Assembly (NCBI GenBank): GCA_013388845.1
Contig: JACAEN010000032.1
Span: 1 to 64,000 of the forward strand
Direction of reading: 5' to 3'
DNA from: Chloroflexota bacterium
Lineage (GTDB): Bacteria; Chloroflexota; Dehalococcoidia; GIF9; AB-539-J10
DNA length: 64,000 bases
Program-made: the position numbers and the translations under genes
The notes under the pieces: generated by a model
What the model was told of the DNA's origin: nothing
The model's database searches: none
What the model saw: the letters and a program-made list of their open reading frames with translations, nothing else
Shown here: positions 7,340-23,430 of the stretch, piece by piece
Position numbering within the stretch: the stretch's first letter is position 1
Layout of the letters: every line of letters starts with the position of its first letter

Positions 7340-7990
7340 TTAATAAGTAGAGGGAATGTCCTTAACCAACTTCCAGACGATGGTCTCAGTAAGCACAGCT
7401 ATATCTTCAGTGGACAGATAATCAGAAATATTAGCATCGAACAATATATTCCCATTGGGGGCAAGCTCCTCATCACCCCTCCACAATACCAAGGTTATGG
7501 GCACACGGTCGAAAGCACTGATGGTCACCGCTATATCTCCGTAGTCTGCCTCACGGCATCCTAACTTAGCCGTCACCTTTCTCAACAGCTCGGGATTCTG
7601 GCCAAAGTTTTTTACTAAAGGGGTTATCGCCCTTTGGGAAAATGCCGGGAAATAGCTAATGCCTCCTGGTAGCTGTTTATAGGTAATCATTTTACCGGTA
7701 GCTGGCGTGCCCTTCGCCCCAGTGAAATAGTGAAGTATCAGGATTTTGTCCCTCAGGGAAGCTTCTGTACTGCCGTCTGCCAACAAAATTTTCACGTCAG
7801 GCAGCATGATGTGATACAACTGATTTAGATAATGAATAACTACCTTGTTGGGCTCCACATACTGCGCACCGCTTTTACGACATTGCTGTTCTATATCGAT
7901 TTTGGCTAGCTTCTCACAAGCAAGCTTATAAGAGACGTCAAAACCCCGCTCCCAAGGACTACCTGATAGAGAACTGCGCTCTTGCGTCAT
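7340..7990 (-). CDS. DUF3786 domain protein in the Wood-Ljungdahl operon
   Basis: A 216-residue soluble protein I assign to the DUF3786 family, which has no established function but is commonly found beside CODH/ACS and corrinoid genes in anaerobes. Visible features include an N-terminal helical part (SYKLACEKLAKIDIEQQC), HYFTGAKGTPATGKMITYKQ around residue 95, and a C-terminal FDANISDYLSTEDIAVL segment. There is no signal peptide and no clustered cysteines. Its start overlaps the metF stop as ATGA, so the two are probably translated together. A role in methyl-branch or corrinoid metabolism is inferred only from position. Confidence 0.75.
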   Translation of the reverse strand: MTQERSSLSGSPWERGFDVSYKLACEKLAKIDIEQQCRKSGAQYVEPNKVVIHYLNQLYHIMLPDVKILLADGSTEASLRDKILILHYFTGAKGTPATGKMITYKQLPGGISYFPAFSQRAITPLVKNFGQNPELLRKVTAKLGCREADYGDIAVTISAFDRVPITLVLWRGDEELAPNGNILFDANISDYLSTEDIAVLTETIVWKLVKDIPSTY

Positions 7991-8916
7991 GTGACCAACT
8001 TAGGGCGGGGCAAAAGACCGGCCGCCTCTACTATTTCAGGCACGACCTCCTCCCACTCGATAGCCGTAAGATGAATGCCAGCCACACCTTCAATTTCACG
8101 CACCTGCTTGATAATATCAACGCAGAGCTTGATGCCCTCCTTCGACACCTGCTCCTTAGGCACTCCCTGAAGTCGGGTAATAACGCTGTCAGGCACATCC
8201 ATTCCCGGAACTCTGGTCTTCATATATTTTGCGGCACCTACTGACTTTATAGGAGCAACACCGGCAAGTATCTTCACTTTCTCGTGTAATCCTCTGTCTC
8301 GTACCATCTTCATCCATTCGGCGAACTTATCCACGTTGTAGATAATCTGAGTTTGGATAAAATCTGCCCCCGCTGCCACTTTCTTAGCCAGACGTGGCAC
8401 CCTGAACTCAAAGGGGTCAGCAAAGGGATTTTCAGCAGCTCCAATGAACAGACGAGGCTCAATTGCCATCTCTTCGCCACACTGGAACTTTTTTTCGTCC
8501 CGCATGTCTTTCACCATCTTGACCAGTTGAATAGAATCAAGGTCATAAACACCCTTAGCGGCAGGATGATTGCCGAATTTCTGGTGGTCGCCTGTGAGAC
8601 ACAATATGTTGTTTATGCCCAGTGCTGCGATACCCAGAATATCCATTTGAAGGGCAATGCGATTGCGGTCACGGCAGGTCATCTGGACAATAGGGTCTAA
8701 CCCCTCCTCTTTACCGATAAGGCAAGCTGCCCAAGATGCCATGCGCACTACACCAGTCTGCCCATCGGTGACATTAAAAGCATCTACATGACCTTTGAGT
8801 ATCCTAGCCTTCCTTCGGATTACTTCAGGGTCAGCACTCTGTGGTGGCCCTAATTCACCCGTCACAGCGAAGATTTTGGATTCCAACACCCGTTCTAAGT
8901 TACTTTTCGTCTTCAT
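7987..8916 (-). CDS. metF: Methylenetetrahydrofolate reductase MetF
   Basis: FAD-dependent TIM-barrel enzyme reducing 5,10-methylene-THF to 5-methyl-THF, the last folate step of the methyl branch. Recognisable segments are FAVTGELGPP at the start, FNVTDGQTGVVRM, NILCLTGDHQKFGNHPAAKG, ADFIQTQIIYNVDKFAEWM and a C-terminal GVAGIHLTAIEWE. ATG 8916 (MKTKSNLERVLE) is chosen because GGAGG lies 4 nt upstream. An in-frame ATG at 8940 falls on a palindromic repeat. With metV immediately upstream this forms the MetFV-type reductase of acetogens. It overlaps the DUF3786 gene by 4 nt. Confidence 0.94.
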   Translation of the reverse strand: MKTKSNLERVLESKIFAVTGELGPPQSADPEVIRRKARILKGHVDAFNVTDGQTGVVRMASWAACLIGKEEGLDPIVQMTCRDRNRIALQMDILGIAALGINNILCLTGDHQKFGNHPAAKGVYDLDSIQLVKMVKDMRDEKKFQCGEEMAIEPRLFIGAAENPFADPFEFRVPRLAKKVAAGADFIQTQIIYNVDKFAEWMKMVRDRGLHEKVKILAGVAPIKSVGAAKYMKTRVPGMDVPDSVITRLQGVPKEQVSKEGIKLCVDIIKQVREIEGVAGIHLTAIEWEEVVPEIVEAAGLLPRPKLVT

Positions 8917-8939
8917 GACGCCTCCAATTGTTTGGCTCA

Positions 8940-8956
8940 TCCCGATAAAATCGGGT
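8940..8956. repeat. TCCCGAT-type palindrome between metV and metF
   Basis: TCCCGATAAAATCGGGT is a member of the 7-bp inverted repeat family, here between the metV stop and the metF start. In the transcript it would form a short hairpin inside the operon. Confidence 0.7.
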
Positions 8957-8959
8957 CAT

Positions 8960-9610
8960 TTAGGGAAACCTCTTAACTGGTGGCCCGGATACAAGGCTCA
9001 CACTCCAATTCTTGGGTGCCACAAGCCTCTCCAATTTATCAAGTTGTCCCAGTTTGGTCAGGCGATCGACAATCTGTTGCCAGACGCAAGGTATGTCCGG
9101 GTCAACTTCACATTTACCACCTTGTGAGCCACCACAGGGACCATTGAGCAAATGTTTAGAACATCGGGCAATAGGACACAGGCCACCAGTAAACTCCAGC
9201 ACACAATCACCACACTCGAGGCAGCGCTCCGATTCTTTCCACTCGGCATGAGCACCGCCTGCGGACAGAGTGTTGCAGCCAGGGTGCACAACTTTGTTTA
9301 CTAATTCCGCTACAGTCTGCACCCCAGCCCCATCGGTCAAAACCAGGATAGAATCGGCAGCAGCGAGTTCCTTCTTATAAGATCTGAGTTTCAACTGAGT
9401 CAACGCTCTATCACATAACATATCAACAACCAGAGACCCAGTGATAGTTTTGCCCTTCTCCTGCAAGGTGTTTTTCATTTCGGCTACTTGTTTTTCTCCG
9501 CCACTTCCCCAGCCCTCAGCACAGCCCTTACAGCCAATGAGAAAGATATTCTTATCTCCCTCAAGATAGCTTAGGATTTCTTCAATTGGTTTTTGTTCTG
9601 AAATCAACAT
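8960..9610 (-). CDS. metV: MetV-type zinc/Fe-S partner of methylene-THF reductase
   Basis: Accessory subunit of the acetogenic MetFV complex, thought to hold Fe-S clusters and link MetF to its electron donor. It is cysteine-rich: GCKGCAEGWG near residue 28, CLECGDCVLEFTGGLCPIA near 133, and CSKHLLNGPCGGSQGGKCEV followed by a further cysteine (DIPCVWQQI). The 216-residue length fits the MTHFR C-terminal-domain family. It lies directly upstream of metF and downstream of the hydrogenase protease, all on one strand. Confidence 0.9.
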   Translation of the reverse strand: MLISEQKPIEEILSYLEGDKNIFLIGCKGCAEGWGSGGEKQVAEMKNTLQEKGKTITGSLVVDMLCDRALTQLKLRSYKKELAAADSILVLTDGAGVQTVAELVNKVVHPGCNTLSAGGAHAEWKESERCLECGDCVLEFTGGLCPIARCSKHLLNGPCGGSQGGKCEVDPDIPCVWQQIVDRLTKLGQLDKLERLVAPKNWSVSLVSGPPVKRFP

Positions 9611-9635
9611 TTCATCTCTCCTTTACACCCTCACC

Positions 9636-10127
9636 TTATTCCTCTACCTCAGGGGAGAGGTTAGTTGAGGTGTTAAGCTCTGCCAAAACGGTCTCTATTA
9701 TCTGAGGCATTTTTTCTCGAAGCTCTGGCGATAACTCTAACCCCCAGTTAATCTCTTTGGGCTCGACTCCAATAATGACTGCCTCGTCTATCCCGATAGA
9801 ATCGGGATGCCAAAGTTTCATTAACATTAAGATATCTACTAAGTCCGTGTCGTGAAGGGATAGGGACGGCTTTGGCTCCCGATTTATATCCTCAAGGTGA
9901 AAACGGTAAATTTGTCCGGGCGTTCCCCCGCCTTTAACAGCATCCACTATGATCAATTTATCAACGTCCTCGGGTAGCTGCACTACATCGGGGCATGTAC
10001 CCGCATCTACTATTTTTACGTCAGGGAGAGTCCCGACAAGTCGGGATTCCAGAGCATGCACGACGTGACAACCAATTCCCTCGTCCTTTAGTAAGGCATT
10101 CCCTATCCCCAGGACAAATTTCCCCAT
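9636..10127 (-). CDS. [NiFe] hydrogenase maturation protease
   Basis: HycI/HyaD-family endopeptidase that removes the C-terminal tail of the hydrogenase large subunit after nickel insertion. Signature segments are LGIGNALLKDEGIGCHV at the N-terminus, VDAGTCPDV, KLIIVDAVKGGGTPG, and SLHDTDLVDILML with the conserved histidine near residue 100. The likely substrate is encoded 49 nt upstream. Two short palindromic repeats lie in frame inside this gene, encoding parts of LESRLVGTLPD and LWHPDSIGIDE. Both stretches look like loops added to the family core. Confidence 0.93.
   Translation of the reverse strand: MGKFVLGIGNALLKDEGIGCHVVHALESRLVGTLPDVKIVDAGTCPDVVQLPEDVDKLIIVDAVKGGGTPGQIYRFHLEDINREPKPSLSLHDTDLVDILMLMKLWHPDSIGIDEAVIIGVEPKEINWGLELSPELREKMPQIIETVLAELNTSTNLSPEVEE
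9791..9807. repeat. Palindrome inside the hydrogenase protease gene
   Basis: TCCCGATAGAATCGGGA lies within the coding sequence in frame, encoding HPDSIG on the minus strand. It belongs to the family found between genes at 1087, 1254 and 8940. Confidence 0.75.
10031..10046. repeat. Second palindrome inside the hydrogenase protease gene
   Basis: TCCCGACAAGTCGGGA, a variant of the same inverted repeat, is translated in frame as part of ESRLVGT. Confidence 0.65.
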
Positions 10128-10133
10128 TCTTTC

Positions 10134-10170
10134 ATAACTCCCCTTCCCCCTCTTATCTTAAGAGGGGGAA
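10134..10170. repeat. Palindromic intergenic repeat
   Basis: CATAACTCCCCTTCCCCC followed by TCTTATCTTAAGAGGGGGAA forms a hairpin between the hydrogenase large subunit and protease genes. It is the same element as at 1063-1123 but without the inner insertion. Confidence 0.65.
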
Positions 10171-10176
10171 TTTTTG

Positions 10177-11736
10177 CTAACAAACTCTAAATCCCCCCAG
10201 GTCATGCCCTTTGGGACTGAGCAAATGTATGGAACAGGCAAGACAGGGGTCAAAGGACCTCACAATACGCACTATCTCGAAGGGATTAGCCTCGTCCTTT
10301 ATCTTGGTTCCCGTCATAGCTTGCTCCAAGGGTCCAGGTTGGTTCTTATCATCCCGGGGAGAAATATTCCAGGTAGACGGGGTGATGACCTGGTAATTAG
10401 CAATTTTGCCTTCTCTTATTTCTATCCAGTGCCCCAGGGCACCCCTGGCTGCATCGACAAGTCCCATCCCAGTAGCTTCCTCTGGAAGTTCGTAGCTTAT
10501 GTAGGCTGGTTCACCAGGCTTGAGCTCCAGAACCCAGTCGGCCATAGCATCAGCTATGAGTTTGGTCTCTAAAGCTCGCGCAAGATTACGCCCCATGACA
10601 GAGAACATCTTGTCGGGCTTTAACTTTAGCTGAGACAAAGCGGAATCAACCAAGCTTTTGACTCTGGGATTGCCGCCAACATAGTTGACCATGATTCGAG
10701 CCAGCGGCCCAACCTCAAAAACCTTCCCACCATAGCGGGGAGATTTCAGCCAGGAATAAGCACCCCTCTTTTCTTCGTCAAGAACAACATCTCCCTGAGA
10801 GGGATGCCTGCCACTGATAGAATCAGCATACCAGGAATGCTTTACTTCCTCAGTAATCTTAGCTGGATCGAACTCGCTCAACTTGAGATCGGTAGAAGTG
10901 GTCCCGGGCTTAAAAAATCTTTTCCTCCTGGTGAGGTCAGCTTCCTTTCCATCCAGCTCATAGGAGCCGTAAGCCAATAAATTCCCACAGCCGCGCCCAA
11001 TTTCAAAATAATCTGAGTAAGCCCGGGCTACCGCCAGTACATCCGGGAGGTAGACATTATCAATAAACTCCTGAAGCTCCTTCAGCCTCCACAGGAACGA
11101 TGTCATATTGTCCACCGTGGGTACAGAGGCAACTCCACCGGGCATTATGCCCATGTTGTGAGGCATCTTGCCACCAAATATAGCAAGCATCTCCTGGCCT
11201 TTACGACGCATATCGAAGGCAGTGACATAATGGGCCACCGCTTGTTCGTTAACATCGTCAGGCAAGCGATAATCACCTTCATAGCGAGGCACAAAAGGCC
11301 CCAGTTCCCCACGGGCAATAAAGCCCTTTATGGAATTCAAGGCAGGATTATTCCCCTCATACTTTGCTAACCTAGCCACATCTACATAATCAAGAGCCAC
11401 TAAGTGATAAAAATGCAGGATATGGTCAGCGATATGGGCTGCCCCTAGAATTAGATTGCGAATAATTCTGCCGTTGTCAGGGATTTCGTCAGCGATGCCA
11501 AAGGCACTATCCAGGTTGAAGGCGGCGGCAATAGAATGGCTTGTCGGGCAAACTCCACAAATACGCTGAGCTATCCGCTGGGCATCCCGAGGATCCCTGC
11601 CCCTCATGATTAGCTCCAAGCCGCGGAACAGCATCCCGGAACTCTTAGCCTCCTTTACCTTGCCACCCTCGACTACTGCCTCAACCTTGAGATGTCCCTC
11701 GATACGGGTAACTGGATCGATTACAATCTTGCCCAT
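10177..11736 (-). CDS. [NiFe] hydrogenase large subunit
   Basis: Holds the NiFe(CN)2CO active site for H2 oxidation or evolution. The L1 motif RICGVCPTSHS is near residue 60 and the L2 motif DPCLACSIH near 500, followed by a 15-residue tail starting LLSPKGH that the adjacent protease should remove. Sequence style (DPVTRIEGHLK, FRGLELIMRGRDPRDAQRI) resembles group 1-type uptake enzymes more than MvhA-type. However, the partner small subunit lacks a Tat signal, so the enzyme should be cytoplasmic. It starts at the base after the small-subunit stop. The ligands are all cysteine, with no selenocysteine. Confidence 0.95.
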   Translation of the reverse strand: MGKIVIDPVTRIEGHLKVEAVVEGGKVKEAKSSGMLFRGLELIMRGRDPRDAQRIAQRICGVCPTSHSIAAAFNLDSAFGIADEIPDNGRIIRNLILGAAHIADHILHFYHLVALDYVDVARLAKYEGNNPALNSIKGFIARGELGPFVPRYEGDYRLPDDVNEQAVAHYVTAFDMRRKGQEMLAIFGGKMPHNMGIMPGGVASVPTVDNMTSFLWRLKELQEFIDNVYLPDVLAVARAYSDYFEIGRGCGNLLAYGSYELDGKEADLTRRKRFFKPGTTSTDLKLSEFDPAKITEEVKHSWYADSISGRHPSQGDVVLDEEKRGAYSWLKSPRYGGKVFEVGPLARIMVNYVGGNPRVKSLVDSALSQLKLKPDKMFSVMGRNLARALETKLIADAMADWVLELKPGEPAYISYELPEEATGMGLVDAARGALGHWIEIREGKIANYQVITPSTWNISPRDDKNQPGPLEQAMTGTKIKDEANPFEIVRIVRSFDPCLACSIHLLSPKGHDLGGFRVC

Positions 11737-12603
11737 TTATTTAACCTCCTCTGGCAAAGCAGCTTGGCTTACTTTCTCGTAAAGCGGGGAAATGTCAAAA
11801 AACCCGGGCTCCGTGCAGCCAATACATGTGGCACCACAACCTACACACCAATTTACTTTATTGTTCCACAACCGCACAGGACAATCGGCATGGGTTATGG
11901 GGCCCCGGCATCCTAATTCATAATTGCAGCCAGGGTCGCCAAACTTCTTAGCAAACTTATTTTCATCATAGTAGGCCCGCCTCTGACAGTTCTCGTGGAT
12001 TGTTTGCCCATAGAACGCCTTAGGACGTTTATGTTCATCCAAGTCCTCCGGTTTGGGCAGACCGGAAAGCAGGATACTAGCCACTGTGCGGACAAACCAA
12101 TCAGGATGTGGCGCACAACCGGGGATATTTATCAAGGGAGTATTGATGCCCTTAGCCTGAAGAACCTCACTGACGCTGCGACACTGAGTAGGGTTAGGAT
12201 TAGCTGCAGGAATTCCCCCAAAGGCAGCACAGCTACCCAAAGCAATGACCACCAGGGCATCCTTAGCCAGTGTTTCCAGCCAAGACTGCATAGTCATTGG
12301 CTTGCCATCCTGTTCGCCAAACACGCCATGGATGCCATCTTTAGCAGTAGGTATAGCCCCTTCCACAATCAAGATATAACCTCTTTTCTTCTTCCGCGAG
12401 GTATCCACCATAACTTCAATTACAGGCGCTCCCGCCCCCGCCATGACAGTAAGATGAAACCTGAGATTGATATGACTGCCTGGGAGCACCTCATCAACCA
12501 AGAGATTTTTGATAGAAGGATTTATGACATTGAGAAGAGAGACTGAGCAACCGGTACATCCAGCAGCCTGTAACCATATCGCCGGGTATTCTTTGGTATC
12601 CAT
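11737..12603 (-). CDS. [NiFe] hydrogenase small subunit, cytoplasmic form
   Basis: Carries the Fe-S relay to the NiFe site. The proximal cluster motif LQAAGCTGCSVSLLN begins near residue 10, with VVIALGSCAAFGGIPAANP near 120 and NIPGCAPHPDWF near 158. C-terminal motifs for the medial and distal clusters are ENCQRRAYYDENKFA, YELGCRGPITHADCPVRLW, and VNWCVGCGATCIGCTEPGF. There is no twin-arginine signal peptide, unlike periplasmic group 1 enzymes. It lies downstream of cooC with a 30-nt gap and directly abuts the large-subunit gene. Confidence 0.95.
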   Translation of the reverse strand: MDTKEYPAIWLQAAGCTGCSVSLLNVINPSIKNLLVDEVLPGSHINLRFHLTVMAGAGAPVIEVMVDTSRKKKRGYILIVEGAIPTAKDGIHGVFGEQDGKPMTMQSWLETLAKDALVVIALGSCAAFGGIPAANPNPTQCRSVSEVLQAKGINTPLINIPGCAPHPDWFVRTVASILLSGLPKPEDLDEHKRPKAFYGQTIHENCQRRAYYDENKFAKKFGDPGCNYELGCRGPITHADCPVRLWNNKVNWCVGCGATCIGCTEPGFFDISPLYEKVSQAALPEEVK

Positions 12604-12633: not shown

Positions 12634-13407
12634 TCATAGACGTAAGCTTTCAACTATCTCTTTGACCTTCGATCGAAGGGGCGATTCCTGAGGGAGTTCA
12701 GTGACGGGCTTCCCCTTCATCTCCAAACCTGCCATATTGGGGTCCTCCGGAATCAGAGCAATAACCTGAAGGCCCGATTCGTCGATCGCCTTCTTTATCT
12801 CCGGAGACAATTCACCTTTGACGCGATTGATTATCAGACCAACTTCACCTACTTTTGTTCTCAATTCTCCAATGAGTTCCTTCATTCGAGCTGCTGTAGT
12901 AACACCTTTCATGGTCGGGTCAGACATAATGAGCAAAACATCCACGTCTCTGGTTGTTTGGCGGCTGATGTGTTCCATGCCCGCTTCACAGTCCATGACA
13001 ACGTAATCATACTTATAATCTTTCACCAGTTTATCTAGAGAGGCACGCAAGAATTCGTTAGAGGCACAATAGCATCCCGGCCCTTCTGGACGCCCCATGG
13101 CTAGAAGGTCGAAGCCCTTGGACTCAGCCAGGGATTCCACTATCTTACCAAACAAATATTCTTGCTTGGGGATGGTGGGGCTTAAACGACCCTTGGAGAC
13201 ATCCTCAGTCATCTTTTCCCGTATTCTGCCCACAGTCCTATTTTCATCTAGAGGCAAACCCAGCGCCTGGTTGAGATTAGTGCTAGGATCAGCATCTACA
13301 GCCAGGACCAACCCCTTCTGAGAAAGAAGACTGATGAGCAGGGCAGCCACGGTAGTCTTGCCCGTGCCTCCTTTTCCTGCGATGGCAATCGTTATCGTTT
13401 TGGTCAT
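12634..13407 (-). CDS. CODH/ACS nickel-insertion ATPase CooC/AcsF
   Basis: MinD-like ATPase that matures nickel sites of carbon monoxide dehydrogenase or acetyl-CoA synthase. It has the deviant Walker A IAGKGGTGKTT at residue 8, a Walker B-like region DYVVMDCEAGMEH, and the CooC-typical GPGCYCASNEFLR, whose cysteine pair can bind metal at the dimer interface. The length of 257 residues is standard. It overlaps the upstream nuoF-like stop by 4 nt. Whether it serves CdhA, CdhC or both cannot be told from sequence. Confidence 0.93.
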   Translation of the reverse strand: MTKTITIAIAGKGGTGKTTVAALLISLLSQKGLVLAVDADPSTNLNQALGLPLDENRTVGRIREKMTEDVSKGRLSPTIPKQEYLFGKIVESLAESKGFDLLAMGRPEGPGCYCASNEFLRASLDKLVKDYKYDYVVMDCEAGMEHISRQTTRDVDVLLIMSDPTMKGVTTAARMKELIGELRTKVGEVGLIINRVKGELSPEIKKAIDESGLQVIALIPEDPNMAGLEMKGKPVTELPQESPLRSKVKEIVESLRL

Positions 13408-15308
13408 TTCTTTGCTCCCTTTTTCGATAAATTCGAGGAGGGCAGCAAGCTAACAGGCGATAGCTTAACTACGGCATTATACTCGGGCGGGCAGACTTGC
13501 AAGCATGTACCACACTTAGAGCATTTAGTCTGGTCAATAACCTTCACTTCTCCCTTCTCCCCCTTAACTGCCTCTGTGGGACAGGTCAAAACACAATGCT
13601 CACAGGCTCTGTCACACTTGTCGGGAAGGATATAATACACAGTGAGTTCGGGACATACTCCAGCGGGGCAGCGCTTCTCCAGAATATGAGCTTCGTATTC
13701 GTCTCGGAAATAGCGCAGGGTTGTGAGGACAGGATTAGGAGCTGTTTTCCCCAAGCCGCACAGCGACCCAGCCTTGACGTCTTCAGCTAACGCGAGGAGA
13801 AGGTCAAAATCTTTTACTCGGCCTCGGCCAGCCCTGATGTCCTCCAGAATATGTAGCATTTGCAAAGTCCCCAGGCGACACATGGTGCATTTGCCACAGG
13901 ATTCCTTAGTTGAGAAATCGAGAAAGAACCTGGCAGCATCGACCATGCAGTTATCCTCATCCATGACAATCATGCCCCCGGAACCCATCATCGAGCCAGC
14001 CTCACGAAGGGAATCGTAATCGATAGGGCTGTCGAGCAAAGTCTCGGGGAGACATCCTCCTGAGGGCCCCCCTATCTGTACCGCCTTAAACTGTTTATCT
14101 TTGGCAATGCCACCGCCAATGTCATAAATAAGCTCGCGAAGCGTTGTCCCCATAGGCACTTCAGTTAATCCCACATTAGCAACTTTGCCTGCCAGGGTAA
14201 ACACTGCTGTGCCCTTGCTTCCCTCAGTACCGATGGAGGCAAACCAATCTGCCCCTCGCTCAATTATCAAGGGAACATAAGCAAAAGTCTTCACATTGTT
14301 TAATAAAGTAGGCTTATTCCACAAGCCAGCTTCAGAAAGGCGCGGAGGTCGTGGCCTAGGCTCGCTCCTTTTACCTTCGATAGCCGCGACTAACGCCGTG
14401 GCTTCCCCGGAAACGAAAGCTCCAGCCCCGGCTGCTATCTCGATATGGAAACCAAAACCGCTACTTAGGATATTATCTCCCAAGAAACCTAACTCCTCGG
14501 CTTGCTTTAAGGCAATTTGCACGCGCTCAATAGCTAAAGGATATTCAGCACGGACATAGATATAACCTTGCTCAGCACCTACGACGTAACCAGCAATAAT
14601 CATGCCCTCGATAACTTGATGAGGGTCGCTTTCCAGAATCACGCGGTCCATAAAAGCACCAGGGTCGCCTTCATCAGCATTGCATATGATATATTTTGGT
14701 GTGCTTTTAGCCTTACAGCATAGCTCCCATTTCAGATGTGTAGGAAATCCCGCCCCACCCCGCCCCCGCAGGCCTGACTTCTCCAGCTCCCTAACTATTT
14801 TCTCAGGCGACATCCCTGATACTTTCTCTAGACTGCTATAGCCACCATTGGCGATATAGTGATTTATATCTTCCGGGTCGATGAAGCCACAGCGGCGTAA
14901 TATAAGACGAAGTTCATGCTCAAACCTGGGAAGCTCGGGTATATAGACTGCTTCCCCGCCGTTACCCTCAAGGGTGCCTAAGGCAAGCTCAAGGCAAGGG
15001 TCATCGCCGGCAACATAACCTTCCACGAGGCGGGGTACACTCTCCGGAGTTACATTAGGATACACAACACGAGGAGAACCAGCCTTGCATATAGTAACCA
15101 ATGGCTCAGCATGGCATAGCCCCATGCAGCCAACCTGGATAATCGGGACTTCCAGTCCTTGCCTCATTAGCTCCTTATTAAAGGCCTCAACTACATCCAA
15201 GGCGCCGGCTGCCCGACCACATGTAGCGGCACTAACAAGGACATAATTGTTTTTTTGCAGAGCCTCCCACTCAGCTCTCGCCCTGCTCTTAATTTCCTCA
15301 AAAGTCAT
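13404..15308 (-). CDS. Second NuoF-like flavoprotein, in the CODH/ACS operon
   Basis: A paralogue of the 4686-6617 protein with the same plan: an N-terminal thioredoxin-like [2Fe-2S] domain (TCGRAAGALDV, GCMGLCHAEP), an FMN/NAD(P)H part (GLRGRGGAGFPTHLKWEL), the cluster motif ESCGKCTMCRLG, and two C-terminal [4Fe-4S] motifs (CDRACEHCVLTCP, CSKCGTCLQVCP). In the first C-terminal motif the spacing CDRACEHCVLTC differs from a standard CxxCxxCxxxC. It sits between the nuoE-like gene and cooC, so it probably links pyridine nucleotides to CODH, ferredoxin or the nearby hydrogenase. No hydrogenase-type or FdhA-type catalytic subunit is fused or adjacent. Confidence 0.92.
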   Translation of the reverse strand: MTFEEIKSRARAEWEALQKNNYVLVSAATCGRAAGALDVVEAFNKELMRQGLEVPIIQVGCMGLCHAEPLVTICKAGSPRVVYPNVTPESVPRLVEGYVAGDDPCLELALGTLEGNGGEAVYIPELPRFEHELRLILRRCGFIDPEDINHYIANGGYSSLEKVSGMSPEKIVRELEKSGLRGRGGAGFPTHLKWELCCKAKSTPKYIICNADEGDPGAFMDRVILESDPHQVIEGMIIAGYVVGAEQGYIYVRAEYPLAIERVQIALKQAEELGFLGDNILSSGFGFHIEIAAGAGAFVSGEATALVAAIEGKRSEPRPRPPRLSEAGLWNKPTLLNNVKTFAYVPLIIERGADWFASIGTEGSKGTAVFTLAGKVANVGLTEVPMGTTLRELIYDIGGGIAKDKQFKAVQIGGPSGGCLPETLLDSPIDYDSLREAGSMMGSGGMIVMDEDNCMVDAARFFLDFSTKESCGKCTMCRLGTLQMLHILEDIRAGRGRVKDFDLLLALAEDVKAGSLCGLGKTAPNPVLTTLRYFRDEYEAHILEKRCPAGVCPELTVYYILPDKCDRACEHCVLTCPTEAVKGEKGEVKVIDQTKCSKCGTCLQVCPPEYNAVVKLSPVSLLPSSNLSKKGAKK

Positions 15309-15314
15309 CTTGTG

Positions 15315-15365
15315 TTATAAGAAATCCTAAATTCGAAGCACCAAATCCTAAACAAATTCAAATGT
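15315..15365. repeat. AT-rich dispersed repeat, copy 1
   Basis: The gap between the second nuoF-like and nuoE-like genes holds GAAATCCTAAATTCGAAGC and following AT-rich sequence. It is closely matched, in inverse orientation, at 17398-17440 beyond acsC. The two copies bracket nuoE2 and acsC. Confidence 0.6.
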
Positions 15366-15394
15366 CTAAACTCAAATACCAAGGGCCGTTTTTG

Positions 15395-15907
15395 TCATTT
15401 GGATTTTGATTTTTTGATATTGTTTAAGTTTTGAACTTCTTGCTTATACGGTATTAAAGCTTCTTCCACCTTAAAGGGCGTCATCTTAGGATAGATTCTA
15501 TCCCTTATTACCATTACGGGAGCCAGCATGCAGCACCCAATACAAGCGACCCTTTCCAAGCTAAAGCTACCATCCTTGGCAGTCTCGCCTACTTTGATGC
15601 CTAGCTCACGCTCCAGGGCCTCCAGAATAAGTCTACCCCCCGCTAGGTGACAGGCAGTCCCCATACAAACCATGGTGTGGTATTTTCCTAACGGAACAAA
15701 GCGAAACTGATTATAAAAGGTAGCAACCCCCCAGACCTCAATCTCTGGTATATCCAAGAACTCGGCAATTTCTCGCAGCGCTTTCCTGGGGAGATACCCT
15801 AGCTTTGTCTGGACTTCTTGCAATAGTGGAATTAAGTTTTTCTTCCGTTTTTTATAGTGACCTAAAATCTCAGCTACTACTTGGCTAGCTTGCTCTTCTG
15901 TAATCAT
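15395..15907 (-). CDS. Second NuoE-like [2Fe-2S] subunit, in the CODH/ACS operon
   Basis: Thioredoxin-like partner for the second NuoF-like protein. Cluster ligands appear in VCMGTACHLAGG and ACIGCCMLAPV. The segment GYLPRKALREIAEFLDIPE and GVATFYNQFRFVP match the family. At 170 residues it equals the first copy in length but diverges widely, so the two nuoEF pairs are not a recent duplication. The C-terminus ends in a lysine/asparagine-rich tail (NLNNIKKSKSK) that runs into the AT-rich repeat zone downstream, so it may be repeat-derived. Confidence 0.91.
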   Translation of the reverse strand: MITEEQASQVVAEILGHYKKRKKNLIPLLQEVQTKLGYLPRKALREIAEFLDIPEIEVWGVATFYNQFRFVPLGKYHTMVCMGTACHLAGGRLILEALERELGIKVGETAKDGSFSLERVACIGCCMLAPVMVIRDRIYPKMTPFKVEEALIPYKQEVQNLNNIKKSKSK

Positions 15908-15920
15908 TCTTTCGACAAAC

Positions 15921-17291
15921 TCAGGACAGACCCTTCAGTTCCTTAGCAACTCCGGGCAGGAAGGCTGCTATTCCAGTCGTTTCCCGGGGACCTACTATTA
16001 CCTCCCATTCACGATTCAAAGCTTCCTCAAGCTCGCCTTTGATCCTGGCTACTTTTCCCGGGATAATTAGCTTTCTATGCTTCACTCTATCTCCAATGCC
16101 ACATTTCTTAATAAATGCTCCTACGGAATCGCCGCTAAACTTGCCAGCAGCCCAGGCAGTGAGGACACCAAGTCCTTCCGCATCCTTGACACAAATGTAG
16201 GCAGGAATCTTGGTAGCCTCCACAGCCGATGACACAAGGAAGTAGGTCAAAGCCCAGTTGGAAGTGACCAGAACTGGCGAATGCTCATCAGGTTCTCCCA
16301 CTTCATAATACTTCTGCTGTACTGCCATAGGGAAGCGGGGATCGGTATAAATATTAAGTCGTTGAACCAGAAGGGGAAGCAGAGAATATTGGTCGAAATC
16401 AGAGAGGACAATAACGCCGGCCCATTTAGTGACAAATGTCGAGGCCACCATTATTTCCTTCAACCCACCTTTAGCCATGAAGCAAGGAAAGGCGATAGTG
16501 GGATAGCCCAGAGGCTTGAAACCTTGCTTTAGCGCTGCCCTACGTATAAAAGTCTGGTCTCTTATCGCCTCCATAAGATTTTTAGAACCGGGGTCTAAAA
16601 CCAGTCCCTCAATTCCTGCCTCTTTTAATCTGGTAGTCAGAGGAATAAGTTCTTCAACGCCTTCCCCACGAAGGCCAACAGGAGTAAGGTTCGCTTTGAT
16701 TTTTGGAATAGCCTTATCAATGTTTTCCTTCGTTATGGGGTAAAGAAGCGGACGTCTATCTGCGCATATATCTCGGGCCGCAAATAAGGCATCCATATCT
16801 TTTGAGATTAAGACCATGCCCAGGTCTGTTGACCCATAAACTTTTTTCACCAAAGCCAAAAATTTGTCCTTGCGCCCCGATTCAAAATAGAGTGCCAGAA
16901 GGTCTGCCTTTAGAGTTACGCCGACCCAGGGGAATTGCAATTCTTTTATTTTCTTTATCTTCTCCTCAATTTTGGCATTGTCATCCTTGTCTGAGATGAG
17001 GAGGGCGATGCCTGGCTTATGGACAAATGTTTTCTCATGCCGATATACTACTTCTTCGTTCCCGATTTTGACGGCGTTCTCCCTCGAGCCTATGGTAACA
17101 AGCTTTATCGGCGGTGCCAGAAGGTCCACCAGCTTGGCTTTTACCTCTTTAGAGAGGTAAGGGCATTTATCTACACTAGCTCCGCCTGACGCCAGCTTCA
17201 TGGCAAAGGCAAAACAAGTAGGAAAGCCACAGTCCTTGCATGGTTTCCTGCCGGGGAGCATCTTTACAATCTCAGAACCTGCAATTGGCAT
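15921..17291 (-). CDS. acsC: Corrinoid iron-sulfur protein large subunit (CODH/ACS gamma)
   Basis: Together with AcsD it binds the corrinoid that carries the methyl group to acetyl-CoA synthase. The N-terminal [4Fe-4S] motif is CKDCGFPTCFAFAMKLASGG with a fourth cysteine at DKCPYL, which is typical. A TIM-barrel domain and the C-terminal cobalamin-binding domain follow (LVTSNWALTYFLVSSAVEA, AYICVKDAEGLGVLTAW). The 456 residues match the usual length. It is followed by the nuoE-like gene with a 13-nt gap and preceded by cdhC across a 157-nt repeat-bearing spacer. Confidence 0.95.
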   Translation of the reverse strand: MPIAGSEIVKMLPGRKPCKDCGFPTCFAFAMKLASGGASVDKCPYLSKEVKAKLVDLLAPPIKLVTIGSRENAVKIGNEEVVYRHEKTFVHKPGIALLISDKDDNAKIEEKIKKIKELQFPWVGVTLKADLLALYFESGRKDKFLALVKKVYGSTDLGMVLISKDMDALFAARDICADRRPLLYPITKENIDKAIPKIKANLTPVGLRGEGVEELIPLTTRLKEAGIEGLVLDPGSKNLMEAIRDQTFIRRAALKQGFKPLGYPTIAFPCFMAKGGLKEIMVASTFVTKWAGVIVLSDFDQYSLLPLLVQRLNIYTDPRFPMAVQQKYYEVGEPDEHSPVLVTSNWALTYFLVSSAVEATKIPAYICVKDAEGLGVLTAWAAGKFSGDSVGAFIKKCGIGDRVKHRKLIIPGKVARIKGELEEALNREWEVIVGPRETTGIAAFLPGVAKELKGLS

Positions 17292-17448: not shown

Positions 17449-18699
17449 TTATATTGGGAGCTTTACTTCACCCTTCAGCCAAGGATGTCCTACCTTTTCT
17501 AAAAATGCTAGAAGTTCATCCACGTTTTTAACGTCTTCTTCCGTGGCTATCTTATCGTAGAGTCCTTTCGCTTGCAGGACACCCTTGTATCTTTCCTTTA
17601 CCTCCTTAGGCATCCACACTATTCTGGCTAGACCACCGTCTGCTTGGATGAATTTGGGAGACCTTAGTTGCTCCAGCCCAGTTCCCAATCTTCCTTCTAT
17701 TTGTTTTCCTCCCGAAGTATCACCAGCCATATGGGAAAATGTTTCTCCAATTACAGTTTCGCCCTTGAATTCCCTGTTCACTACTCCGAAGGCATCCGCC
17801 TCAGGGATGTAAAAAACGATGGCTTGAAAGCAACCACAGGAGGTATGGGGATGCTCAAAAGCGCTGTACAGATAAACTCTATCATAGGTCCCCAAGGACT
17901 TCTCTTGCACTACTTTATTCAAGCCTTCGTATTCGCCCCTCACAGGATCCAAAAGCTTTCCTTTAGGAATAGCAAATATTGGCCCCTCAGGGTCAATCTT
18001 GGCAGCCGCCCGGCCATCAAACCAGTTGATGGCGCCGCAATTGGCAATCCTATTTGGCGCTATGATGGAGACATGGGTGGGGGCAAAACTCTGACACAAG
18101 GTGCAGCCATAGAAAGTATCCACATCTTCATCCTTAAGAGCTCGTGCTCGAGCATCCCTTGCCTCATAAATCTTCAAAGCCTTGGGAAGAAGTTCAGCTA
18201 CTTTCTTATCATCGGTAATGAGAGTCGTTTGAATCTTTTCGATAATGGGCAACTCAGAGGTGAAAAGAAAGTTATAGATTTCCCCCAATTCACGCAGGGA
18301 GGTGAAGCCTTTCTTATAGCAAGCTTTGCTCATCCTTAGCCAGATGTCTTGCCTTTGATTCATGTGATACCAACCTTCAATCATATTGGTGAACATATGA
18401 ATCCTTCTTTCGATGATTGGTTCGGCATCCTTGTCTAGCTGCGAGCCGGCGACATCAACTAGAACAGCCAAGGGATAGCTCCCACCCTTTCCTGTCGTTG
18501 CATCGTAAGGCGCTAACGCATTCAAATCGGGACCGATAATCTCCACTTTTTCATTTTCAATTTCCGCAGCGCTCTTCAATGTTGCCAACTCAAATTTGTG
18601 TGCTACCTTTGGTCCGCCAAACTCGACATATACATCCTCCTTCCTTATCACCTCCCCTTCGTATTGAGGTCCTATATCTACATGAAATTCGCCTGCCAT
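17449..18699 (-). CDS. cdhC: Acetyl-CoA synthase catalytic subunit, short CdhC form
   Basis: Assembles acetyl-CoA from CO, the methyl-corrinoid and CoA at the nickel A-cluster. At 416 residues it lacks the N-terminal CODH-binding domain of bacterial AcsB (about 730 residues) and so matches the archaeal beta subunit. A-cluster motifs are YGCTLCQSFAPTHV near residue 195, NCGAINWFDGRAA, and HTSCGCFQ near 290. The cysteine following THV in Moorella ACS (Cys518 there, a [4Fe-4S] ligand) is serine here: THVSIIAPNRIANC, codon TCC. That is either a real ligand change or a single-base error. The gene lies 3 nt downstream of cdhB. Confidence 0.94.
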   Translation of the reverse strand: MAGEFHVDIGPQYEGEVIRKEDVYVEFGGPKVAHKFELATLKSAAEIENEKVEIIGPDLNALAPYDATTGKGGSYPLAVLVDVAGSQLDKDAEPIIERRIHMFTNMIEGWYHMNQRQDIWLRMSKACYKKGFTSLRELGEIYNFLFTSELPIIEKIQTTLITDDKKVAELLPKALKIYEARDARARALKDEDVDTFYGCTLCQSFAPTHVSIIAPNRIANCGAINWFDGRAAAKIDPEGPIFAIPKGKLLDPVRGEYEGLNKVVQEKSLGTYDRVYLYSAFEHPHTSCGCFQAIVFYIPEADAFGVVNREFKGETVIGETFSHMAGDTSGGKQIEGRLGTGLEQLRSPKFIQADGGLARIVWMPKEVKERYKGVLQAKGLYDKIATEEDVKNVDELLAFLEKVGHPWLKGEVKLPI

Positions 18700-18702
18700 T
18701 TT

Positions 18703-19254
18703 CTATACTCCTTTCTTTAAGTTATCTATTAAGCTTTCTAAGAACGCTTTCCATTGTTCATCTTTTCTGAAATTGGGAAGAGAATAGTTTGCATGGGGAT
18801 AATAGAACTTACATAGCGTCATAGTTTTTAGATGGGGGGCAAAATGCTTGAGCACAGAGAGACCCTGCTCTCCGAGGTCGCTCCTTATGCCAAAGAAGAG
18901 CACCAAATCGTGGTTACCTTCTTTCTTGACTCCCCGCCAATTTGGATCCTTGAGGGCATTGATTATCTCCACAACGTCATAGAAGCTATCCGGTTTTACT
19001 CCCAGCTCCGCCATCTTCGCCCTAACGTGCGCTGTGGCGCACGTAGGAATATTAGCAGCCTTAGCAATCTCCAGAGCATATTCTATGAGTAGCTTCCCAT
19101 CAAGCGACCACTTCAGCAGAAGGGGTCCGAGTACGAGAAGCGGCCTCCTTGCTTTTTGTACCAAGCTCGCATATTCTTGGGCATCTTCTATCAGTCTTGC
19201 TGACTTTATCCCGGTTAAGACATTTACCCTATGATATGGTATCACCGCACTCAT
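18703..19254 (-). CDS. cdhB: CODH/ACS epsilon subunit CdhB
   Basis: Small subunit of the archaeal-type alpha2-epsilon2 carbon monoxide dehydrogenase, with a DHS-like Rossmann fold thought to help electron transfer from flavin carriers. Recognisable parts are RPLLVLGPLLL near residue 37, NIPTCATAHVRAKMAELG, and DLVLFFGIRSDLGEQGLSVL. The 183 residues fit the family (about 165-185). Bacterial CODH/ACS normally lacks this subunit, so its presence next to cdhA marks the complex as archaeal-like. Confidence 0.9.
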   Translation of the reverse strand: MSAVIPYHRVNVLTGIKSARLIEDAQEYASLVQKARRPLLVLGPLLLKWSLDGKLLIEYALEIAKAANIPTCATAHVRAKMAELGVKPDSFYDVVEIINALKDPNWRGVKKEGNHDLVLFFGIRSDLGEQGLSVLKHFAPHLKTMTLCKFYYPHANYSLPNFRKDEQWKAFLESLIDNLKKGV

Positions 19255-19266
19255 TTTATCCTCCTT

Positions 19267-21573
19267 TTAATGAATCACCGCATCCACAGGAACCTTGCTG
19301 GGATAAGTCCCAATAAGCGTGGGAAGACCCACAGGCTCCTTGGGTTTCCAGCCGATTTCTTGTAGATATGCCCTCACCTCTTTCTTATAGACAAGAGGAA
19401 TATCAGGATCCCTGCGCACGAAGAGGTAAATGTCCTCAGGAAGACCACCCCCCATGTACTTCTTGTGCAGGGAGATGTAGTGGTTTAATTTTATCGCCCT
19501 TCCCTGAGGGGTATCATTCTTCCTTATGCACAACTTGGGAATCATCACCATAGCTTTCTCTTTAGTTTCACAGACATAAGCCAAGTGCTCAGGAGAAGGT
19601 TCTCCAGTATCTACAATTTCCTTCTTCCGGGCATCCATGACTCTCCAATCGTCCTCTTCCTTTCTCGAGAGATACAACCTTCTATATTTGGAGGAATGAG
19701 GTCCGAGTATCACCGGGATGCCTAATCTGTTGCAGCCCGTAGCGATGGAAGCAGCCTTCTGTGAGTATGCCCCCCAGGCTACTCCCACTGCGCCTACACG
19801 ATTGAGAACATAGTCAGCCATTACCTCATAATTTCCCCTTAAAGGAAGAGCAGCAAAGATATTGGCTATCTTTATGGCTGCTCCAGTGATATGAGCATTG
19901 GCAACGCAGGAGCCAACGTTCACTACCCCTCCCATATCAAAAGCTGGGGGATATTTTTCATATACGGTCTTGCCATCGGCATCCTTCCACATCCCGGCAA
20001 CCATGGCACTGCATCCCGAAACAACCACGATGTACTTTCTCTTGGCAAATTCGTCCACCATCTCGGCAATGTCCCGAATGTCAGGAAAGTTCGAGCAGCC
20101 CACAATGGCAACTACTCCGGGGATTGTGCCCAGAGTTATGGGTGCCCCGACAGTCCTTATCTCCGTATCCATAATCGAACCACGCCCAGCTCTAACCTTC
20201 CAACTTTCTTTGCTCGCCGCTACCTGCATTATCTTGAAGATGGGAATCTTGCGAGGACATTCCGCCTCGCACTTTCCACAGCCAACACAGAGATTGAATT
20301 GCTCCCTTAGCAAGTCAAATTTGCCCTTGGCGACCTCGGCTATACCAGCGCCAATGTTGAAAAGGTTAGGGCATACCTGCTCACACATACCACAGACATT
20401 ACACTTGCTGGCCAGTTCCTTCGCTTCCCCCTCGCTCAGCCATTCCTTTCTCCTCTGAGGAGCAATTTCCATGGCAACCTTAGCCGCTACCTCGGCTGCC
20501 TTTCGTGGGTCAAGGATAGCAAAATGCTTCTTGTCCTCTACCATCTGTTTGACTATCTCTTCAGTATCCATCTCTGTGGCATCTTCAAGTCCATACATAG
20601 CCTTGTCCAGAGTAGCTATGAGTGCCGACCCGGCTTTAGATGCCTCTACAGGCATATCGGTTCTAATGCATTGCTCATCGGTCATTATGACATCGGCAAT
20701 GCCACTTCTGATGAAGAAAAGCTGCCGGGAAAAAGGACCAACAACTTTAGCTTTGGCAGAATACCTGCTTGTCTCCAGAGCAGTGCAACAGACGCCACAG
20801 ACTTCAACTTGGTCATAAAGATTATTTTCTCGGAGGTAATCAATGACTACGGTAGAAGTAGCTGGATTATGCCCCACAAACAGGATTACCGGTTTGCTTT
20901 TGTCCACTGCCGCCCACCCCAAATCTATCAGGGGTGTATCAGCAACTGAAGTGGGGTAATTAAATCCCACTATCTGAGCAATATCAGCCACTTCCATACC
21001 CACATGGTCCAGCATTCCCGCATGAAGAGCTTTCGATTCATAATCCAGGCAACTCCCCTCTTGTCCCATTGCAGTGGAATCCAAGAGATGGGTGATCTCC
21101 TTGAAGACATATTCTATGGCTATTACAAGGTCGCCCAAAGTCTCAGGCTTCAAGCCCACAACTGTCCTTATGTGCGGTGCTTCGATATTGATTGATCCGC
21201 CTAAATCTATCTTCTTATCCGGACCGTACCTTTCAATCAAGAACTCCAGGATGTGCCCAGCATGGGCAGTGTGGGCCGAGCACCCCATCAAGCAAGCCAG
21301 AAGTACAAACCTCGCTTGTTGAGTAGCTATATCAATACCGCAGGCGCCTCTCCTTGTCTCGGTGAGGTCACACTTACCGTAGGTGCAGAAGCAACACAAA
21401 TCACAGAATGGCGCGTAAAAAGGGGCATATGTTTTCAATAACCTCATGTCCCATTGTCTGAGGTCAGGGATTTCCGGCATCGGAGTGGGACCTACCGGCT
21501 CCCAGGGAATCTCCGCTCTTATCTTCTCATGAATTTCTTCTAATTTCCGTGTTATCTCTTTTTTTTCTGCCAT
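19267..21573 (-). CDS. cdhA: CODH/ACS alpha subunit CdhA (archaeal-type CO dehydrogenase)
   Basis: Nickel-iron CO dehydrogenase that reduces CO2 to CO for acetyl-CoA assembly. N-terminal cluster cysteines are in DLCCFCTYGKCDLTE and RRGACGID, and C-cluster-associated segments include LMGCSAHTAHAGH, LFVGHNPATSTVVIDYL, and EVCGVCCTALE. Two ferredoxin-type [4Fe-4S] motifs (CNVCGMCEQVCP and CVGCGKCEAECP, about residues 395-445) are typical of archaeal CdhA and absent from bacterial CooS/AcsA. C-terminal motifs NVGSCVANAHITGAA and ATGCNRLGIPVILGP complete it. At 768 residues it is full length. It lies between acsD (4-nt gap) and cdhB (12-nt gap). Confidence 0.95.
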   Translation of the reverse strand: MAEKKEITRKLEEIHEKIRAEIPWEPVGPTPMPEIPDLRQWDMRLLKTYAPFYAPFCDLCCFCTYGKCDLTETRRGACGIDIATQQARFVLLACLMGCSAHTAHAGHILEFLIERYGPDKKIDLGGSINIEAPHIRTVVGLKPETLGDLVIAIEYVFKEITHLLDSTAMGQEGSCLDYESKALHAGMLDHVGMEVADIAQIVGFNYPTSVADTPLIDLGWAAVDKSKPVILFVGHNPATSTVVIDYLRENNLYDQVEVCGVCCTALETSRYSAKAKVVGPFSRQLFFIRSGIADVIMTDEQCIRTDMPVEASKAGSALIATLDKAMYGLEDATEMDTEEIVKQMVEDKKHFAILDPRKAAEVAAKVAMEIAPQRRKEWLSEGEAKELASKCNVCGMCEQVCPNLFNIGAGIAEVAKGKFDLLREQFNLCVGCGKCEAECPRKIPIFKIMQVAASKESWKVRAGRGSIMDTEIRTVGAPITLGTIPGVVAIVGCSNFPDIRDIAEMVDEFAKRKYIVVVSGCSAMVAGMWKDADGKTVYEKYPPAFDMGGVVNVGSCVANAHITGAAIKIANIFAALPLRGNYEVMADYVLNRVGAVGVAWGAYSQKAASIATGCNRLGIPVILGPHSSKYRRLYLSRKEEDDWRVMDARKKEIVDTGEPSPEHLAYVCETKEKAMVMIPKLCIRKNDTPQGRAIKLNHYISLHKKYMGGGLPEDIYLFVRRDPDIPLVYKKEVRAYLQEIGWKPKEPVGLPTLIGTYPSKVPVDAVIH

Positions 21574-21577
21574 TTTC

Positions 21578-22483
21578 TCACCTTGCCTTTATCGTTTCCC
21601 TTACTAATTTCAAGGTCTCGGGATGTCTTAGGACGATAATATTTGCTCCAGCCAGTAAAAGCGACAGCGCCGTTATTCCTTCCCAGAGCAACCCTTGCTC
21701 TTTGTTTTCCTTGGCCTGTTTTGTCTTCCAGCACTCGCCACCAATATTAGCAATAATCGGCATCATGGTCATACTGTCTTTGGTCATAATTCCAATCTGT
21801 TTCACCCTCTCCATTAGAGAGAAACCATACTCCATACCGTAGCCCAATGCCGGGGATAAAGAGTCGATCACAATTCTATCGGGGGGAAAGAACTTACTCA
21901 GCTTGACATTTAGCTCCTTCAGCAAATTGATGTCTAATGGAGTCTGAGCAATAGCGGTATGCCCATGATCTAGAATTGCCTTGCCCACCGCTTCGTAATT
22001 CTCCTTAAGCGCTGGACCTATAAGGAGGTTCATTCCATCGCATAATTCAGCAACCTTGGAAAGAACCTCAACATCTTTCTTTTCGTCTCCAGAACCATAG
22101 ACAATCAAAGGCACATTTATAGCCTCGGCTACTTCTTTAGCCAGTGCCGCTGCTTTGTCGGCAGGAGCGTTTTTGACCGCCGGGTCGGTACTCATAAGGA
22201 AAAGCGACACAGCATCTACAGCAAAATCCTGACATTTCTTAGCCCATTTCACTGGGTCGGAAATTACATCCCAAAAGGGCTCAACTAGATGTTCTGGCCA
22301 ATCTTCGGGCTTCATATCCAGAACTTCCAGAGCAAACTTGGCCGGATTGGGATTTGAGCCTTGGTCAAAAACATGAAAGGGGAGGATATTCTCCCCCCCA
22401 ATCTTTAAGCTCTTCTTGCCCTTCCCAATAGTTACCTCTCTAACCACGCCAGTATACGCTTCAACTGGTGCTTTATATTCCAT
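21578..22483 (-). CDS. acsD: Corrinoid iron-sulfur protein small subunit (CODH/ACS delta)
   Basis: TIM-barrel partner of AcsC that helps hold the corrinoid during methyl transfer. Segments typical of the family are the N-terminal VREVTIGKGKKSLKIGGEN, PLIVYGSGDEKKDVEVL, LIGPALKENYEAVGKA, IVIDSLSPALGYGMEY, and the C-terminal LLLAGANIIVLRHPETL. The 301-residue length is standard. It follows acsE by 12 nt and precedes cdhA by 4 nt. Confidence 0.94.
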   Translation of the reverse strand: MEYKAPVEAYTGVVREVTIGKGKKSLKIGGENILPFHVFDQGSNPNPAKFALEVLDMKPEDWPEHLVEPFWDVISDPVKWAKKCQDFAVDAVSLFLMSTDPAVKNAPADKAAALAKEVAEAINVPLIVYGSGDEKKDVEVLSKVAELCDGMNLLIGPALKENYEAVGKAILDHGHTAIAQTPLDINLLKELNVKLSKFFPPDRIVIDSLSPALGYGMEYGFSLMERVKQIGIMTKDSMTMMPIIANIGGECWKTKQAKENKEQGLLWEGITALSLLLAGANIIVLRHPETLKLVRETIKAR

Positions 22484-22495: not shown

Positions 22496-23383
22496 TTAAC
22501 TTTCAAGCCAGGCATTGGAGTACAAGGTCGCTCCTATAAGAACCTTGGCCGTCTTAACGTACTCAATTTCCTTTTGAGATAAGGAGGAGAGGTTTACGTC
22601 TTCCCCATCCATGGTCTTGTAAATAAGCTCGACAATTTCCGGCATTTCTCCCCTAGCCAAGCTCATAAGCTCCTTATCCAAAGGGTCAGCAATGGCCGAA
22701 TAAAGCCTGTTCCTTTCGAGCATCACCAGATAAGTGCGGTTAAGAAGCGGCCTGAGATGGTCTGGCACGCCGCTAGATGTATTGGAAAGCCCTACCGTTG
22801 ACTTAACCCCGGGCAAAACATCCTCAAGTATCTTGATAAATTCTAGATTTAGCACAGTGAACCTCTGCCCCTCTCCAGCAGTGCTGATGGGCAGGAGTAT
22901 GGTGTCCACCCAGATGTCCTCGTTGGGAATCCCTAATTCATTAGCATAGGCCACCGTGTCCATAATACTTTCTACCTTGGACTCAACATCGGGAGGCATT
23001 CCTTTGTCCGTCATCACTGAAATCACTACATCGCAGTTATATTTCTTAGCCAAAGGCAGCATTTGCTCTTTCGAGAGGCTCTTTCCTGAGGCAGAGTTAA
23101 GTAGGGGCCTTCGCTTGCAAGCCTTTAGGCCTGCCTCCATAGCCACAGGATTCAGGGTATCTATAGACAAAGGTAAATCAGTGACTTCCTGAACTGTGTT
23201 GACCAACCATTCCATAGTCTCTTCAGTGTCTTTTTTCACGGGGCCAACATTTAAGTCAATATAGTCGGCTCCGGCTTCAGCTTGAGCTCTAGCTAAATCC
23301 TGGATTACCTTGGCATCTCTCTCTCTTATCGCTGTGGAAACTTCTTTGGCTATGACATGAATGTTCTCGCCGATAATGACCAT
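22496..23383 (-). CDS. acsE: 5-methyl-THF:corrinoid iron-sulfur protein methyltransferase AcsE
   Basis: Moves the methyl group from methyl-THF to the corrinoid of AcsCD. It is a pterin-binding (dihydropteroate synthase-like) TIM barrel: IIGENIHV at the N-terminus, AGADYIDLNVGP near residue 38, LPLSIDTLNPVAMEAG, RPLLNSASG, and GLSNTSSGVP. ATG 23383 is chosen because GGAGG sits 7 nt upstream. A further upstream in-frame start at 23422 adds 13 residues outside the family. It is the first gene of the long Wood-Ljungdahl transcription unit, 48 nt after a near-consensus promoter. Confidence 0.93.
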   Translation of the reverse strand: MVIIGENIHVIAKEVSTAIRERDAKVIQDLARAQAEAGADYIDLNVGPVKKDTEETMEWLVNTVQEVTDLPLSIDTLNPVAMEAGLKACKRRPLLNSASGKSLSKEQMLPLAKKYNCDVVISVMTDKGMPPDVESKVESIMDTVAYANELGIPNEDIWVDTILLPISTAGEGQRFTVLNLEFIKILEDVLPGVKSTVGLSNTSSGVPDHLRPLLNRTYLVMLERNRLYSAIADPLDKELMSLARGEMPEIVELIYKTMDGEDVNLSSLSQKEIEYVKTAKVLIGATLYSNAWLES

Positions 23384-23430
23384 ACGAGTACCTCCGACGT
23401 ATCGGTTCGGTATCCTGGACAAACCACAGC

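Follow-up and report, generated by a model that had tools for sequence, protein, structure and literature searches.

The cdhC Gene and the Surrounding Gene Block

The window (the whole stretch of DNA analysed, 64,000 nt) carries one ACS gene only, cdhC, a clean ORF of 416 residues on the minus strand that lies where the first-pass annotation had placed it (17449–18699). Its product scored 562.9 bits against the NCBIfam model TIGR00316, by a wide margin above the cut-off of 355.95, and matched the Pfam families PF03598 and PF19436. It is of the archaeal type, without the bacterial N-terminal domain. The AlphaFold2 model of the protein is metal-free and has a mean pLDDT of 93.9. In Foldseek, the model revealed the ACS fold, with TM 0.90 and rmsd 2.1 to truncated ACS 3git_A and TM 0.89 to C. 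autoethanogenum 6ytt_A. The best E-value was that of 9c0s_E, yet this chain superposed only loosely (TM 0.58, rmsd 8.4), probably due to domain movement. By descent, score, and fold, the protein is CdhC, and its cubane ligand set is non-canonical.

Genes for CdhA, CdhB, CdhD, and CdhE were found alongside cdhC (Table 1). The MetV label is based on a PF12225 match and on position, and the MinD/ParA-type ATPase is presumably CooC-like, according to its position in the gene block. A NiFe hydrogenase is coded inside the CODH/ACS gene block (10177–12603); the best NCBIfam match of its small subunit is the NiFeSe small subunit, with 311.6 bits, which is below the cut-off of 470. FTHFS is coded elsewhere in the same genome.

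Table 1. Genes and residues of the CODH/ACS gene block in the window (+ strand numbering)
Feature	Position	Strand	Basis
MetF-like, MetV-like, hydrogenase maturation protease, NiFe hydrogenase large and small subunits	7987..12603	minus	NCBIfam/Pfam
MinD/ParA-type ATPase	12634..13407	minus	profile search; no CooC model matched
NuoF-like and NuoE-like electron-transfer subunits	13404..15907	minus	TIGR01959 464 bits (below 558.65); NF005722 153.3 bits (above 141)
cdhE/acsC, corrinoid protein gamma	15921..17291	minus	NF003195 546.3 bits, cut-off 306
cdhC, ACS beta subunit, archaeal-type, 416 aa	17449..18699	minus	TIGR00316, PF03598, PF19436, AlphaFold2
Cys288-Gly289-Cys290, dinickel-binding CGC	17830..17838	minus	invariant in 85 rows; coordinate from ORF
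Cys221, A-cluster, NCG	18037..18039	minus	invariant in 85 rows; coordinate from ORF
Ser211 codon TCC, [4Fe-4S] ligand cysteine column	18067..18069	minus	computed from ORF
Cys202, A-cluster, second C of CTLC	18094..18096	minus	invariant in 85 rows; coordinate from ORF
Cys199, A-cluster, first C of CTLC	18103..18105	minus	invariant in 85 rows; coordinate from ORF
Trp110, strictly co-occurring with Ser211	18370..18372	minus	29/29 Ser, 0/64 Cys rows; coordinate from ORF
cdhB, CODH/ACS epsilon	18703..19254	minus	TIGR00315 127.2 bits, cut-off 101.2
cdhA, CO dehydrogenase alpha	19267..21573	minus	TIGR00314 1077.9 bits, cut-off 781.3
cdhD/acsD, corrinoid protein delta	21578..22483	minus	NF003376 348 bits, cut-off 280
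MeTr-like, methyltetrahydrofolate:corrinoid methyltransferase	22496..23422	minus	NF005719 232.6 bits, below cut-off 259

Serine at Position 211

The A-cluster cysteines of Moorella ACS are C506, C509, C518, C528, C595, and C597. The A-cluster motif of the window CdhC is YGCTLCQSFAPTHVSIIAPNRIANCGAI, with TSCGCFQ later (that is, CTLCQSFAPTHVSIIAPNRIANCG, and CGC further along). Its Ser211 takes the place of a cysteine that ligates the [4Fe-4S] part, which we take to be Moorella Cys518, and in HMMER alignment to solved chains it was aligned with Cys201 of M. thermophila CdhC (9c0s) and with Cys517 of C. hydrogenoformans ACS (8cmw and 7zkj). This alignment bears out the first-pass reading of a serine in an A-cluster cysteine column; the codon is TCC as was read, and its position, given as near 18066, was one base off from 18067–18069. 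The further claim that the other A-cluster cysteines are intact also held, as the remaining five and the glycine of CGC are invariant in the 85 rows of alignment A1. The dinickel motif and the bridging cysteine are present (Cys202, Cys288, Gly289, and Cys290), where Cys202 is presumably the residue bridging to the proximal Ni. Three of the four cubane cysteines are present and the fourth is Ser211.

Distribution of the Ser and Cys Forms

The scan of genome contigs gave 88 relatives, of which the best 80 were kept and made 81 loci together with the window's own. Column 211, covered in all of these except L077, holds Ser in 33 and Cys in 47 of the 80 loci, which are not all independent genomes, as several contigs seem to be present in both collections (e.g., as L006 and L116). 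The column check suggested in the first-pass annotation thus found the serine to be common to relatives. A set of 93 rows was compiled, in which the partial or broken loci L036, L069, L071, L073, and L077 and the locus L081 (the window again) are omitted and the rows from L082 onward are a chosen subset. It has 29 Ser and 64 Cys rows and no residue other than these two at column 211. Alignment A1 is this set without L052, L054, L067, L075, L019, L111, L138, and L079; L019 and L111 were omitted for a stop within the match, and L138 and L079 for unknown residues.

Among the best 80 of the 88 relatives, identity to the window is 71% or more for every Ser row except one and below 69% for every Cys row except one. 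The exceptions are L016, with Cys at 81% identity, and L073, with Ser at 66% in its first piece. The Ser-form cdhC of L073 (6905–8118) appears as two overlapping matches and is probably split over two frames, by an assembly error or as a pseudogene. The second close Cys relative is L193, which is 80% identical to the window.

The Ser-only DNA pattern matched in four of 400 genomes of the phylum, all from the window's genus. The pattern allowing a TC or TG codon matched in 137 of 393 genomes of the class, with TC in 18 and TG in 119; the latter were counted as Cys from codon positions 1 and 2 only, and their ACS identity was confirmed for a part. G400, one of the 18, was dropped from the Ser form, as its locus L134 is without an ACS match at E 1e-20. 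The 17 Ser-form genomes of the class are 12 of the genus, four others of the family, and G444 from another family. In the genus, Ser was found in 12 of 13 genomes, including the window's own, and G550 is without a match. The other 16 genomes of the family have Ser in G632, G652, G726, and G738, Cys in G114 and G130, and no match in ten. In the order of G746 (L016), 41 of 46 genomes matched, all 41 with TG, including G777 (L193).

The Ser form is also present in the G742 family, in four of 17 genomes (L002, L008, L013, and L015), with TG only in the other 13. L008, L013, and L015 are labelled Syntrophaceae. In these four loci the serine is preceded by Cys (HCS), and the Ser form, with one ACS match apiece, is the only ACS found. 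The Ser form has apparently been transferred between phyla here.

No second ACS gene was found in the 20 Ser-form draft genomes searched (the window's own and 19 others), and a second copy making the Ser form dispensable was rejected for these drafts. The 19 others gave one ACS match in 16 genomes and two fragments, matching different parts of the query, in three. Each of the 14 Ser loci that were examined has the gene order MeTr-CdhD-CdhA-CdhB-CdhC-CdhE-NuoE-NuoF, as do the two Cys sisters, L016 and L193; some remoter Cys loci deviate from it, such as L040 and L130, which are without a CdhB match.

Other Chloroflexi MAGs carry a second, divergent CODH/ACS set, found at L189 (67–12756; G758:C186). 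It comprises two CdhC-like genes, which score slightly over the TIGR00316 cut-off, and two CdhA-like genes, which fall short of that of TIGR00314; the two kinds alternate, and the set adjoins methylmalonyl-CoA-mutase-type large and small subunits, a CdhB-like protein, and an SDR. ACS-like copies occur likewise in L187 and L188 (G757) and in L190 (G756). The six A-cluster cysteines are kept in the divergent set (CTICKSLAPNH-V/A-C, YCG, and NCGC). At a guess, the acyl group handled by this set may be one different from acetyl.

Phylogeny, Selection, and Mosaic History

The tree was computed under LG+G4 from 89 rows (the 93-row set minus L052, L054, L067, and L075), with column 211 excluded. In the best tree, the Ser rows form one side of a branch and the trait needs one change. 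The clade of the 29 Ser rows with the Cys rows L016 and L193 has support 100/100. The branch parting the Ser rows from these two is weak (61/26), and the single change was kept in 64% of 200 bootstrap trees. The topology suggests one origin of Ser, and with such values on the branch L016 and L193 may instead have reverted to Cys. A separate one-clade test for the Ser group gave nothing beyond the best tree, which already has this clade.

Ser211 is coded by TCC in 17, TCT in 10, and TCG in two of the 29 rows. Within the Ser clade, codon 211 changed at least six times at its third position, while positions 1 and 2 stayed constant, and the codons of the ligand cysteines (199, 202, 221, 288, and 290) had five to nine third-position changes and likewise constant positions 1 and 2. 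By this common pattern, Ser211 is kept as strictly as the ligand cysteines, though it is one base away from Cys. The mean column in the clade has 2.3 changes at positions 1 and 2 together, and 174 of 406 columns are also without any, so that the strictness at 211 is not exceptional. The dN/dS ratio was 0.02–0.11 in 12 of 15 hand-chosen pairs (14 Ser-Ser and the Cys pair L016/L193), and dS was saturated in the other three. Judged by these substitution patterns, the Ser211 substitution is under purifying selection. Such conservation would also be expected if Ser does no more than hydrogen-bond or if the protein has another job.

Aligned to L004, the window DNA is mostly 82–90% identical across the operon, 89–96% in cdhA-cdhB (about 21.3 to 18.8 kb), and in cdhC 76–78% in five of six bins and 87% in one, the fall lying at about 18.8 kb, close to where cdhB and cdhC meet. 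CdhA and CdhB proteins are 96% identical to those of L004 and L012, and CdhC is 84% (L004) and 81% (L012) identical. L012 gave a picture like that of L004 in the DNA comparison, and L005, L006, and L010 are without the cdhA-cdhB peak; all five loci have Ser. The uneven identity indicates segments with different histories and suggests recombination within the operon (17449–21573) relative to L004 and L012.

Candidate Residue for Coupling with Ser211

To look for coupling with the serine, we screened for columns in which 27 or more of the 29 Ser rows share one residue and both Cys sisters have another. Twelve such columns were obtained, and only W110 and S211 itself are absent from all Cys rows. 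In the AlphaFold2 model, W110 and S211 each start a strand. W110 is a candidate for a coupled second-shell change, and it may also be a mere lineage marker, as W110 and Ser211 arose on one branch and represent one event, not a repeated correlation.

Probable Ligation of the Cubane and Rival Explanations

The window CdhC is very probably a functional ACS. The operon is kept, methyl-branch genes are present, and no other ACS was found in the drafts, from which we infer a working carbonyl branch. It is rather probable that this working CdhC/ACS has its cubane ligated directly by Ser211. The cubane would be held by Cys199, Cys202, Cys221, and, as the fourth ligand, the oxygen of Ser211, which would replace a thiolate on one cubane iron; the dinickel site (Cys202 and Cys288-Gly289-Cys290) would be unchanged. 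In this proposal we infer enzyme activity, [4Fe-4S] assembly, and binding of the serine oxygen to iron alike. From the behaviour of Cys-to-Ser cubane variants in general, one would expect the potential of the cubane to be shifted, probably to more negative values, and its coupling with the proximal nickel to be changed. A wider proposal, to which we give about even chances, is that in Dehalococcoidia a natural, selectively maintained A-cluster with serine-oxygen ligation, coupled with W110, tunes the potential of the cubane and its exchange with the proximal nickel, and that the gene set moved between phyla.

Two options were offered in the first-pass annotation, a wrong base or a different ligation of the cluster. 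TCC and TGC differ by one base, but 32 more loci, taken from other assemblies, also have Ser, with the codons TCC, TCT, and TCG, as have nearly all genomes of the window's genus, its own included. The wrong base is thereby refuted and the probability of a sequencing or assembly error in the window is negligible; the serine has been preserved by evolution, and the substitution is practically certain to be genuine. The other option is supported, and the cluster is probably ligated differently. Instead of Ser211, the fourth ligand could come from another residue of CdhC, such as Cys210, Cys127, or His283, or from another subunit, for example, CdhE or CdhA. Cys127 is present in 21 of the 29 Ser rows and in none of the 64 Cys rows, Cys210 in six Ser rows, and His283 in all 29 Ser rows. 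However, Cys210 is also found in 15 and His283 in seven of the Cys rows, so that His283 is not strictly coupled, though it is Ser-specific against the two sisters. Moreover, the only cysteines in the aligned region of the Ser-form L009 are the five of the A-cluster; it is without Cys127, Cys210, or any extra Cys there, and both cysteines were rejected as a general replacement. From these comparisons within CdhC, a ligand from elsewhere is very improbable.

A site-differentiated cubane with three cysteines was also considered, in which Ser211 would be unbound, the fourth iron would carry water or hydroxide or be lost ([3Fe-4S]), and the enzyme would still work. A small Ser could leave space for water, and according to PMC11138216 aconitase-type and dihydroxyacid dehydratase enzymes have clusters with three Cys and a ligand other than cysteine. 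If the side chain were irrelevant, however, Ala, Gly, or Thr would be expected at 211, where the 93 rows have only Ser and Cys, and the lack of position 1 and 2 changes at codon 211 in the Ser clade also speaks against an unbound Ser211, which is regarded as not very likely. The protein could further be without the standard acetyl-CoA synthesis or cleavage, with its function lost or with another acyl or electron role; in favour of this, the Ser rows lack a cysteine ligand kept by the 64 others in the 93-row set. Against it are the invariant dinickel residues of the 85 rows, the low dN/dS wherever computable, the operon retained in 14 Ser loci, the single ACS of the 20 Ser-form genomes searched, and the methyl-branch genes of the window's own genome, and such a loss is improbable. 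Direct ligation by Ser211 is the reading preferred here.

Significance and Comparison with Known Systems

To our knowledge, no earlier natural ligand variant of the ACS A-cluster is known. A search by title and abstract start, with most subscription journals outside its coverage, found no report of serine in the ACS A-cluster, and the passages of PMC11321310 on ACS alcove residues make no mention of a serine ligand. According to a model-chemistry paper (PMC11295191), there is debate on how the A-cluster works, and what its [Fe4S4] part does is poorly understood; the Ser form is for this reason a natural probe. One terminal cubane ligand is changed and both nickel sites are kept, and the Ser form and the about 80% identical Cys form of L016 and L193 are a ready comparison, which could ask whether the cubane potential matters for activation and methyl transfer. 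The Ser form also cautions against using the six-cysteine signature to decide whether an ACS gene in a genome is functional.

Lipoyl synthase is a protein unrelated to CdhC with a like ligand set, as its auxiliary [4Fe-4S] cluster has three Cys and one Ser as ligands, and PMC11138216 gives the proposal that the serine helps to destabilise the cluster for sulfur transfer. Unlike that auxiliary cluster, the CdhC cubane is not known to be consumed. The CdhC of M. thermophila (9c0s/9c0t) is from the same family, has the same motif spacing, and is the best match both in PDB sequences and in Foldseek E-value, but has Cys201 in place of Ser211 and a chain of 472 aa that reaches beyond the matched part. 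Bacterial ACS/AcsB (Moorella 1oao, C. hydrogenoformans 1ru3/7zkj, C. autoethanogenum 6ytt, and 3git) aligned over nearly the whole window CdhC; full-length bacterial chains have about 315 extra N-terminal residues, and the C. hydrogenoformans enzyme has Cys in the Ser211 column. The nearest comparison is the CdhC of the Cys-form sisters, L016 and L193 (G777), which is about 80% identical to that of the window and coded in an operon of like order, but differs from it at positions 211 (Cys), 110 (Ile or Phe), and 233 (Ser).
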